Source: Desulfoscipio geothermicus DSM 3669 (GTDB taxonomy: Bacteria; Bacillota; Desulfotomaculia; Desulfotomaculales; Desulfallaceae). From it: 35,366 nt of DNA. Under the pieces are notes generated by a model. That model saw only the letters and a program-made list of their open reading frames with translations. It made no database searches and was not told the origin of the DNA. Location: NCBI RefSeq assembly GCF_900115975.1, contig NZ_FOYM01000035.1, positions 1 through 35,366 of the forward strand, given 5' to 3'. Position numbers and translations under genes: made by a program. Shown here piece after piece: positions 5,947 through 9,656 of this stretch (the stretch's first letter is position 1; every line of letters starts with the position of its first letter).

Positions 5947-8829
5947 TTATCCCCCTATCAGGCCTTTGTAGTCTTCCAAATTGTTAGTTAAAACAGTGTA
6001 CGCAATCAAAAGAGCAACAGCTGGATCTATGCGCTGGCGCTGGTTCTTGCCCTTCACCGGCCGGATGTTTTCGTTTTTATCAACCTCGACCGCCACGTTT
6101 GTAAGTGCCCATTTCACCAAGGGATTGTTGTTATAGTTAATGCCATTTGCGGCCAGGTCGGCCTTAAGCTCCTTCATCGGTGCCGAAAGGGTACGGGCAC
6201 CCATGATTACCGGAATGAGGTTCTCCTTATTCGTGTAACCAATTCGGTTCTCCATATCCTCTACCCACGCCGGGGAGTTCCAGCTATCGTAGCCGGACCA
6301 GTAGGCGATTATGCCGTATTCATCACGCATTTTTAGAAACCAGTCAGTGACGTATCGATAGTCGACCTTGTTGCCCGGGCACGGCGTAATCAGTCCTCGC
6401 TCAGCCCACTTATCATAGGGCACCTTATCCTCTTTACTGCGCTGCTCGATGGTGTCAGCCGGCATAAAACCCTGACCAACAAAATATTTTTGCTCGCTTC
6501 CCGGTTTCATTATTAGTATACCGGCAAAGGTCAGGTCGGTGGTGGCTCCCAAGTCAACCCCGCCAATGCCGTAGCAGTCGCGCAGTTCCTCGATGTCGAA
6601 TACTTCCTCGTTATTGGCTTCTTCGAAAGTTAGCCACTTATCTGCCGTTGTTTCACGGATATTAAAATCCTTTGTTAGCACCGTAGGTAAAAAGTTTTTA
6701 TCATGCTTTGCCCGCTCCACATTGGCCGCTAGTTCTTCATAAGACTTGATTGTGCCCAGTCCAGGGTTAGCCTTCTCCCATGCCCGGAAGTCGGTCCACT
6801 CGTTGCGATCATCAAGTTCGTAAATAAAAGCCAGGAATCTTTCGTCCTCGATAACGCCATCCAGGACCTTGCAGGCATAATCGTAAATGTCATCAAAAAT
6901 ACACTCCCGAACAAAGCCGGCTGTGGTTATCATGTCAAGTAGTGGTTGCTCTCTGGCGGCCATAGACTGCTTCATCACGTCATAGAGGTTGCGATCTTTT
7001 ATAGCGTGTAACTCGTCCATAACACAATAATGGGTATTCAAGCCATCTAGGCTGTTGCTGTCGCTGGCCAGGGGTTCAAATTTCGAGAATGTCACCGGGA
7101 AGTACAAGTCAGTCTTACGTTTCTTTATATGTTTTGAAAGCGCTGGCGATTGAGAAATCATATTAACGGCCTCGGTAAATACAATACGGGCCTGGTCCTT
7201 TTTTGTGGCCACCGAATAAACTTCGGCACCACCTTCGCCGTCGCCAATAAGCATATAATTACCGGTTGCTGCCTTCTCTGTGCTGTTATGCGTTACAGTC
7301 ATTCTCTTGCCAGCTAAATATAAATTGTCCGCATTATCCACACCAATGCACTTGGTCGGCACTGTGTCAACTTTTTTAATGTTCACAATGGATTTATTTG
7401 CCATTCTAGAACACAGTTTATCTTTTAGCCGATCAAGCTTTCTCTGAAGCTTAAAACAGGGGTTTGTTTTATCGCAATAAAAAAGGACTGAATAAACAGT
7501 CCCTGCGTCTTTTCCATTGCACTTTGCGGTTTTTTCTCTGATACTGTGCTTTATCCCCAAGCTTAAAAGCAATTCACTGAAGCCATCAATTATTACCTTA
7601 CTCTTTTGGACAAACTCACACTGGCCGCGTTTTTCAACATAACCGTCAGTGTCCATTAATCCCCTTAACAATTCCATCCGCTGGTCAACTGATGACATTA
7701 AATACATCTTAGGGATATGTTTATTGTTTAACAGATTCAATGCCCTTAAGTTGCCTTGAAGCGACAAATTTGTATATGGAGGTATTTCTAAACCATGCCT
7801 TCGGGCATAACCTGTCATTTTCTCACAAGCTAAACACTTATTGGTTTTATAATTAAAGTTCTCAGATTTAAGATGTCCTCTAATACAGTATTTGCTTTTG
7901 TCGTTTGTAATCGTTACGGTGCCTGCTTTTTTGTCGGTTTCTCTTTTTATTAAAACATATCCAGCTTTTTTTATTTCATCAAGTATTTGTGAATCTTGCC
8001 AATTAATTGTTATTCTACCGCTACAACTTGATCCGTCCCCTAACCAAACACCAAGAACATAGGGGTCTATAGGCAAATTAGCGCGCGGAAATTCTATAGC
8101 TTTATTTATTGGCACGCGGTATTTATATTCAATGCCTTTTCCATCTTTTCTCACCCTAGCAAAATCCTTTGCCATTTCCTCAGTAGTTATATTGAAATAG
8201 CCATTGCCTTCTCGGTAATCAGTTCGTTGTAATTTCCTTGTGCCTTTTAATTTGCGTTTAAGCATCCTTCTACTGTTCTTGGTTATTACAGTCCAGACGT
8301 GTTCTGCATCTGCGATTATTTTTTCGCCATCTTCAAATTCTACCTCATAGCATGTATGGTCATTAAAAATTTCAGAAGTAAATTTTATTCGAGCCGGCTT
8401 TCCATCTGCGCCGTAAATATAATCACCAACGTTTAACTCGCCCATAACTTTCCAGCCGTCAGGGGTTATAATTGGCGTATCAACGCTCAGGGCTTTACCA
8501 TTCTTCCGGGCGACACAAGTAAATACTTCCCGGCAACGCCTTACCCCTGTATCCTTATGAACAAATCCATAAACAGCCTGTATTTTAGCTTTCTGGAACA
8601 ATCCCAGTTCGACCGGCTTTCCAATCCACTTGCCCTTTGAGTGTTTGCAGAATTTCTCTATGAATTCAATCGGCTGGTTTGCCTTCTCCAAATCAAAAAC
8701 CCACGGATCACGTGGGTTGTTAAGTTCGTCAACAAGTTTTTGATATTGCTGAACCAGGCGCTTACAGGCGACTATTTCGCCGGACTGAATTTTATTCCAA
8801 TACTCGAGAATATAATTCGGCTGACTCAT
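5947..8829 (-). CDS. terL: Terminase large subunit containing an in-frame intein
   Basis: A 960-codon frame encoding the DNA-packaging ATPase/nuclease. Removing a 403-residue intein (residues 113-515) leaves 557 residues, normal for HK97-type TerL. The N-extein ends 'TCVARKNGK' and the C-extein resumes 'STEKAATGNYM', so the intein splits the Walker A motif between its Lys and Ser. Walker B is 'YCVMDELHAIKD' (D605/E606). The nuclease domain shows 'GGVDLGATTDLTFAG' and a late 'RIDPAVALLIAY' aspartate. ATPase activity therefore depends on splicing. The start ATG overlaps the terS stop (ATGA). The whole frame is open, so the precursor looks intact. Confidence 0.95.
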   Translation of the reverse strand: MSQPNYILEYWNKIQSGEIVACKRLVQQYQKLVDELNNPRDPWVFDLEKANQPIEFIEKFCKHSKGKWIGKPVELGLFQKAKIQAVYGFVHKDTGVRRCREVFTCVARKNGKALSVDTPIITPDGWKVMGELNVGDYIYGADGKPARIKFTSEIFNDHTCYEVEFEDGEKIIADAEHVWTVITKNSRRMLKRKLKGTRKLQRTDYREGNGYFNITTEEMAKDFARVRKDGKGIEYKYRVPINKAIEFPRANLPIDPYVLGVWLGDGSSCSGRITINWQDSQILDEIKKAGYVLIKRETDKKAGTVTITNDKSKYCIRGHLKSENFNYKTNKCLACEKMTGYARRHGLEIPPYTNLSLQGNLRALNLLNNKHIPKMYLMSSVDQRMELLRGLMDTDGYVEKRGQCEFVQKSKVIIDGFSELLLSLGIKHSIREKTAKCNGKDAGTVYSVLFYCDKTNPCFKLQRKLDRLKDKLCSRMANKSIVNIKKVDTVPTKCIGVDNADNLYLAGKRMTVTHNSTEKAATGNYMLIGDGEGGAEVYSVATKKDQARIVFTEAVNMISQSPALSKHIKKRKTDLYFPVTFSKFEPLASDSNSLDGLNTHYCVMDELHAIKDRNLYDVMKQSMAAREQPLLDMITTAGFVRECIFDDIYDYACKVLDGVIEDERFLAFIYELDDRNEWTDFRAWEKANPGLGTIKSYEELAANVERAKHDKNFLPTVLTKDFNIRETTADKWLTFEEANNEEVFDIEELRDCYGIGGVDLGATTDLTFAGILIMKPGSEQKYFVGQGFMPADTIEQRSKEDKVPYDKWAERGLITPCPGNKVDYRYVTDWFLKMRDEYGIIAYWSGYDSWNSPAWVEDMENRIGYTNKENLIPVIMGARTLSAPMKELKADLAANGINYNNNPLVKWALTNVAVEVDKNENIRPVKGKNQRQRIDPAVALLIAYTVLTNNLEDYKGLIGG
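7285..8493 (-). other. Class 3-type intein with LAGLIDADG homing endonuclease inside terL
   Basis: The intein is 403 residues. It begins with Ala ('ALSVDTPIITPDGWKVM'), which cannot do the usual N-terminal Cys/Ser chemistry, and ends 'MTVTHN' before a +1 Ser. Block B has 'ADAEHVW' (H65, W67), block F 'TKCIGVDN' (C382) and block G 'VTHN' (T401), which together form the W-C-T triplet that defines class 3 inteins. The endonuclease has two LAGLIDADG motifs, 'LGVWLGDG' (147-154) and 'RGLMDTDGY' (277-285). Between them lies a C-x3-H-x12-C-x2-C zinc-finger-like insertion (C203, H207, C220, C223). The coding DNA looks visibly more AT-rich than the flanking exteins. Boundaries were set by codon counting. 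Confidence 0.92.
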
Positions 8830-9321: not shown

Positions 9322-9609
9322 TTAATCACTGACAACCAAGTCCCCATTCTCATCAAACCTCAATCCCTCTGCCGTACTCGCCCCACCATGTTCACGATTG
9401 TGGCAATTAAGGCAAAGATACTCCAGGTTATCCCAGTTCAGCGTTACGTCCGGGTTGTTGATATTCTCCGGCGTAAGCTTGATCTTGTGGTGCACAATAT
9501 GCCCTGGCCGCGGACACCGCTCACACAACCCGAACACACTGGCGATGTATGCCTCTCTGCATTTCAGCCAGGCCTTGCTTTTATAAAACTTCTTTGCAAA
9601 TGGCTTCAT
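9322..9609 (-). CDS. HNH endonuclease next to terminase
   Basis: 95 residues from ATG 9609. It opens 'MKPFAKKFYKSKAWLKCREA', the usual start of terminase-adjacent HNH proteins. The zinc/ββα core is 'CERCPRPGHIVHHKIKLTPEN' with the HH pair, then 'NWDNLEYLCLNCHNREHGG', giving two C-x2-C pairs and the final N/H. In cos-type phages this HNH protein acts with TerL in cutting cos DNA, so it is probably a packaging factor rather than a homing enzyme. It is the first late gene after the terminator at 9657. Confidence 0.88.
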   Translation of the reverse strand: MKPFAKKFYKSKAWLKCREAYIASVFGLCERCPRPGHIVHHKIKLTPENINNPDVTLNWDNLEYLCLNCHNREHGGASTAEGLRFDENGDLVVSD

Positions 9610-9656
9610 CGAAAAACACACCACCGGTGCGGCCGCTCAACACGACCCCAAATCAA

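Follow-up and report, generated by a model that had tools for sequence, protein, structure and literature searches.

The window, a stretch of 35,366 nucleotides from Desulfoscipio geothermicus DSM 3669, carries a terminase large subunit gene (terL) interrupted between the Lys and Ser of its Walker A motif. We read the insert, with a probability of about 0.87, as a class 3 intein, its LAGLIDADG endonuclease complete, which would splice, cut DNA and transfer itself by homing, and which probably touches its target through a predicted zinc finger nested in the endonuclease. A class 3 intein in a TerL P-loop was to be expected; what is useful here is the finger.

The neighboring genes are those of a temperate phage (portal, head protease, major head protein, neck proteins, repressor, integrase and DnaB-like helicase), in line with the prophage suspected in the sequence-only reading. 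The host genome (3.65 Mb, 83 contigs) holds one match to the intein and one to PF20441. It also encodes Spo0A, matched within the control set only by Bacillus subtilis; a spore-former lineage fits this host. The DnaB-like helicase of the same phage (15962-17878) has an intein-free P-loop, GVGKTAF, and a small HNH endonuclease gene (9322-9624; matches to PF01844 and phrog_119) lies beside the terminase genes.

A class 3 intein in the terminase P-loop

The terL gene is a single 960-aa open frame encoding a terminase large subunit precursor (Pfam PF20441, 4.9e-36; PF03354, 4.7e-28). Motifs were placed on an alignment of 167 inteins, comprising that of the window and 166 others, which are the 169 intein loci of our survey less three that have no N-terminal part (L005, L006, L201). 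The relatives surveyed were the best 80 of 264 and the best 80 of at least 590, which weights the survey towards close relatives. The features, all on the minus strand, are as follows.

5947..8829 (-): terL gene; 960-aa precursor, 557 aa after predicted splicing
8494..8829 (-): N-extein, TerL residues 1-112, ending in P-loop VARKNGK
7285..8493 (-): class 3 intein, 403 aa, TerL residues 113-515
5947..7284 (-): C-extein, from Ser+1 (7282-7284) through the stop codon; begins STEKAATG
8293..8301 (-): block B His65-Val66-Trp67, from the alignment of 167 inteins
8032..8058 (-): LAGLIDADG motif 1, VLGVWLGDG, with Asp153, from the same alignment
7756..7917 (-): nested module, intein residues 193-246, modelled separately
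7825-7887 (-): zinc-finger core, Cys203-Cys223 (predicted)
7642..7671 (-): LAGLIDADG motif 2, LLRGLMDTDG, with Asp283, from the same alignment
7348..7350 (-): block F Cys382, predicted first nucleophile
7285..7293 (-): block G Thr401-His402-Asn403

The intein runs from ALSVDTPI to TVTHN, and its boundaries and residue numbers agree exactly with those first proposed from the letters of the sequence. The junction, VARKNGK/STEKAATG, likewise bears out the proposed position between the Lys and Ser of the P-loop, with Ser as the +1 residue. GC content is 0.379 in the intein and 0.435 and 0.484 in the exteins. Several PHROGs families labelled as terminase large subunit (phrog_36964, phrog_15 and phrog_19299) match this frame within the intein; their profiles seem to include inteins, and could mislabel intein-bearing proteins.

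The insert is precisely placed, as empty-site relatives show. The joined flanks align at the DNA level, with no gap, to five intein-free TerL genes (L071, L007, L008, L009 and L010). Two of these, L007 and L008, are the closest full-length relatives (89% identical) and run continuously across the joint with no insert. Among 79 related loci the site is empty in all 74 that cover it, the other five being fragments that stop short; three of the 74 (L002-L004) have an intein at a different position. TerL of Clostridioides difficile phage CD2301 is 52.8% identical to the computed 557-aa joined product over 551 residues, and aligns with the precursor at 6-113 and 516-958, with only weak scattered matches between them (E 1.5 or worse); a homolog aligning through residues 113-515 would have spoken against an intein, and this one skips that region. 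The intein itself matches the class 3 DnaB inteins 6rix (phmmer E 6.3e-24) and 6bs8 (7.4e-24). Chance resemblance or a mis-read frame is ruled out by these matches, the exact boundaries and the presence of the signature residues in 167/167 inteins.

The signature is that of class 3, as first suggested from Ala1, Trp67, Cys382 and Thr401, and extends to His65 and Asn403. Position 1 is Ala, leaving no Cys, Ser or Thr nucleophile there, and Trp67 (B:12), Cys382 (F:4) and Thr401 (G:5) occupy the block positions of the WCT triplet that defines the class (PMC5050341). Block B reads D62-A-E-H65-V-W67, which includes the DxxH motif of the Mycobacterium smegmatis DnaBi1 intein (PMC6195587), and block G reads T401-H402-N403. 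The M. chimaera DnaB1 class 3 intein has the triad Cys124-His65-Thr143, plus Trp67 (PMC7664689). His65, Trp67, Cys382, Thr401 and Asn403 are each present in all 167 aligned inteins, which, having been fetched as relatives of the query, speak to conservation rather than giving independent proof of class.

Structure prediction agrees. The AlphaFold2 model of the intein (pLDDT 96.6) places its splicing domain over the M. smegmatis DnaB1 intein 6bs8 at 1.1 A (125 residues, 39% identity, Z 23.4) and over the M. chimaera DnaB1 intein 6rix at 1.6 A (41% identity), and over this domain class 3 chains are the nearest solved structures (Z 22.7-23.4). Both mycobacterial inteins share the splicing domain and the His65/Trp67 numbering of the window intein; they differ in residing in DnaB rather than TerL, and M. 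smegmatis DnaBi1 is a mini-intein that has no endonuclease (PMC6195587). It is very improbable that the intein instead belongs to class 1 or 2 and has its W-C-T triplet by chance, in which case splicing would start independently of Cys382. The Hint fold is common to all classes, and class 1 inteins too give good alignments (6qaz, Z 19.2), but Ala1 rules out the class 1 nucleophile, the nearest splicing-domain chains belong to class 3, and every relative keeps W, C and T; we rejected class 1 or 2 identity on the signature and the nearest structures.

A predicted zinc finger nested in the LAGLIDADG endonuclease

The endonuclease is complete, as had been proposed: PF14528 is matched above its cut-off (E 3.2e-11) and PF05204 at E 8.3e-6, and the whole model overlays the yeast VMA intein PI-SceI with Z 25.7 (4.2 A, 343 residues). 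PI-SceI, a class 1 intein, likewise joins a Hint domain to a LAGLIDADG endonuclease. Each of the two LAGLIDADG motifs has its acidic residue; Asp153, which by analogy with PI-SceI we take to be catalytic, is kept in 162/167 inteins and Asp283 in 163/167. The block D residue is Lys258, and the endonuclease frame is unbroken.

Overlooked in the sequence-only reading, which was otherwise right that the domain is full-length, is a predicted zinc finger within it, C203-x2-G-H207-x12-C220-x2-C223, with all four ligands of the pattern C-x2-G-H...C-x2-C. It lies in the spacer between motif 1 Asp153 and block D Lys258, here 104 residues. Across the 167 inteins spacer lengths fall into two groups, 105 at 50-89 residues and 62 at 100 or more, with none at 90-99. 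A finger pattern occurs in 66 spacers, as a CCHC form in 25 (window included), two C4 fingers in 33 and one C4 finger in eight, and is absent from the other 101, including close relatives inserted at the same P-loop position. Outside the spacer the general pattern, which is stricter than the slightly looser CCHC pattern, was found in 0/167. Only one long spacer has no finger (L149), and five of the shorter ones have a single C4 finger. In the spacers of at least 90 residues Cys is kept at window positions 203, 220 and 223 in 58, 61 and 62 of 62. Spacer lengths and the inside and outside counts are a fairer measure than our module alignments (A3, 24 CCHC modules with L210 omitted; A4, 25), which were chosen by motif and so have invariant ligands by construction.

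The CCHC forms come from the window, 17 viral contigs, three Bacillota and one each of Pseudomonadota, Bdellovibrionota, Verrucomicrobiota and Fibrobacterota; the C4 forms are exclusively from Actinomycetota records, the 33 loci with two C4 fingers lying between L126 and L184 (for example L156:3001-4248). Of five typed C4 examples, four have weak matches to the HNH family phrog_1271 (best 7.9e-5) and three have phrog_1333 (unknown function) as their best family; Pfam zinc-ribbon matches of C4 modules all fall under the curated cut-offs.

Several of the relatives' finger modules resemble those of phage HNH endonucleases. Among the 24 CCHC modules, 12 match the HNH endonuclease family phrog_826 at E<=1 (best 1.5e-6) and eight match phrog_1492, also an HNH endonuclease, at the same threshold; six modules run singly hit phrog_826 positions 163-211 in 6/6 cases and phrog_1492 positions 166-216 in 5/6. 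No Pfam family is reached by the 24 at E<=0.01 (best 0.012). For the module of the window itself, PHROGs gave no family at E<=1 and Pfam none at E<=10; the HNH link of the window finger comes through its relatives. The finger stretch alone finds three phage records at E<=1, the best at 5e-3.

In the full model the finger is confidently folded (block means of pLDDT 92-97 over residues 201-240); modelled alone, the module (pLDDT 80.3, pTM 0.56) forms two helices, one short and the other beginning at the second Cys pair. Its top match in the viral structure library is the HNH endonuclease of Gordonia phage Daredevil (probability 0.98, E 0.087, 1.5 A over 37 columns), and its second a 1024-aa terminase (probability 0.90, E 0.16). 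Among PDB structures Foldseek gave nothing better than E 1.6, VIA-align to the 91 PDB chains concerned gave none at Z>=2, and the module profile gave nothing better than E 0.5 against PDB sequences; for so small a module these results say little. The phage HNH endonucleases (phrog_826, phrog_1492, Daredevil) have a CCHC module similar to that in relatives of this intein, and in Daredevil perhaps a predicted fold like that of the window finger, but are built on an HNH rather than a LAGLIDADG core and are not inteins. Most likely the nested finger serves to contact DNA, as a module of the phage HNH type that would give the endonuclease an extra hold on its target.

Spread and history of the intein and its finger

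Class 3 inteins of this kind had been called a minority class, yet they are not rare in phages: tblastn with the intein matched 705 of 50,697 phage records at E<=1e-5, and some of these matches lie outside TerL. Of the other surveyed inteins, 157/166 sit at K/S or K/T, in terminases and other P-loop proteins. P-loop TerL inteins are in print, and the window intein, at K/S of the TerL P-loop, belongs to an already known kind, the TerL1-a site group, whose inteins are inserted between the invariant Lys and Thr (PMC5050341). The same paper reports that five representative terminase inteins splice (sites b, c, e, f and g) and that two cleave DNA; the splicing assays in its available text concern those sites and not a.

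Among eight named-phage loci, four have a K/T intein with Ala1, H-x-W, block F Cys and THN: Synechococcus phage B23, Vibrio phage 489E54-1, Escherichia phage ECD7 and Mycobacterium phage Eureka. The gene is annotated as a terminase in the first three and as 'exonuclease', with the note 'large terminase', in Eureka. Gaia has its intein elsewhere, the CMP1 and Constella junctions are unrefined, and the module of Vibrio phage RYC is unreadable. Eureka gp8, which we take as the TerL1-a example, likewise has its insertion at the P-loop Lys, but its intein is shorter (331 aa), 31.4% identical to that of the window, and has no CCHC pattern.

A second site is also in use in this TerL family, VA/TK, 26 residues further on than the window site, with class 3 inteins at L002:1117-2118, L003:828-1829, L004:2869-3870 and L254:2498-3499; L002 TerL is 78% identical to that of the window. 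These four inteins begin with Pro, as do 7/167 overall, so the first bond to break would be Ala-Pro.

On the tree the sister of the window intein is L102 (SH-aLRT 93, unstarred). Both have the finger, and the inteins are 64% identical where the terminases are 27% identical, which implies horizontal transfer; movement of the intein between unlike terminases fits these sequences. L186, by contrast, has a terminase 78% identical to that of the window with the same insertion site, and an intein 66% identical that has no finger. At the joint, seven relatives (two with the same flanks) agree with the window in 13-17 of 24 upstream bases and 7-13 of 24 downstream, which makes the RKNGK codons the likely shared target.

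These histories bear on whether the intein might still splice but carry a now inactive endonuclease, being passively inherited with the prophage. No recent homing is visible, since no empty-site TerL relative closer than 89% protein identity was found; but both LAGLIDADG Asp residues, Lys258 and the frame are intact, and the histories of intein and TerL conflict, and we regard passive inheritance as unlikely.

The finger has had a restless history. On a tree of the 'quick' kind, built with the module columns left out and with 50/161 inner branches weak, the CCHC label cannot be placed with fewer than 10 changes, five of them forced by starred branches, which rejects a single gain or a single loss; presence against absence of any finger needs 16, of which 10 are forced, and the C4 type by itself six. 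In such counts gain is indistinguishable from loss. It is quite conceivable, at somewhat less than even odds, that the finger is ancestral to this intein family and was lost many times, instead of having entered it again and again from HNH endonucleases: the CCHC modules share a single position in the endonuclease alignment, and the Cys retention in long spacers noted above suggests that the C4 and CCHC forms may be variants of a single module, but ligand patterns are lineage-specific (CCHC, one C4, two C4) and the C4 type alone already demands its six changes.

The same turnover could mean that the Cys/His module serves as a structural brace, or is what remains of a decaying finger, and stays off the DNA in an intein otherwise as described. 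Most of the surveyed inteins do have no finger, near same-site relatives among them, and in L159 and L185, which belong to the group with shorter spacers, the finger appears damaged; L186, L187 and L189, near relatives with no finger, retain everything else in the endonuclease, so that within the family the finger can be dispensed with. The window intein nonetheless retains all four ligands in a confident fold, the modules look like parts of HNH endonucleases, and the accessory region of PI-SceI contacts DNA (PMC8966425). We consider a brace or remnant rather improbable, and continue to prefer a DNA-contact role.

The yeast HO and WHO proteins also join a LAGLIDADG intein-derived endonuclease to a zinc finger, but one that is C-terminal, in proteins that have no exteins and do not splice; a 2020 paper called them the only known intein-zinc finger fusions (PMC7282813). 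The ShiLan element, a homing insert in a phage gene, also encodes an endonuclease with zinc fingers, but its nuclease is of the HNH type and in another reading frame, and the available text does not identify the element as an intein (PMC11855218). Among titles and abstract openings, with subscription journals thinly covered, we found no earlier description of a zinc finger within a splicing intein.

Proposed splicing and homing, and what the finger may add

The likeliest course of splicing and homing is the following. In the precursor the P-loop is broken by the intein, and a protein so split should be unable to drive packaging; splicing efficiency might, as first suggested, bear on the timing of packaging. 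Cys382, helped by His65 and Thr401, would attack the Lys-Ala bond at the N-terminal junction to form a block F branched intermediate, the first step of the class 3 pathway (PMC5222942). The acyl group would then pass to Ser+1, Asn403 would cyclize, and the exteins would be joined into a TerL with a complete P-loop. The freed intein would cut intein-free terL near the P-loop codons, the nested finger (Cys203, His207, Cys220, Cys223) probably adding its hold on the target, and repair would copy the intein in.

Zinc reversibly inhibits M. smegmatis DnaBi1 through its initiating Cys (PMC7360933), and because the window intein has a predicted zinc site built in, a coupling of zinc to splicing is worth asking about, speculative as it is. 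A broader proposal, which we hold to be tentative and on balance doubtful, is that the stretch between motif 1 and block D is a hot spot of class 3 inteins that repeatedly takes up zinc fingers exchanged with phage HNH endonucleases. Such inteins would be the first to combine a zinc finger with continued splicing; in them the finger would aid jumps between unlike P-loop genes, and may tie zinc supply to splicing and homing. If the modules bind zinc and DNA, dozens of natural LAGLIDADG-finger fusions would exist among class 3 inteins, and with finger-less sisters such as L186 beside finger-bearing ones, what the finger does in target choice can be tested directly.
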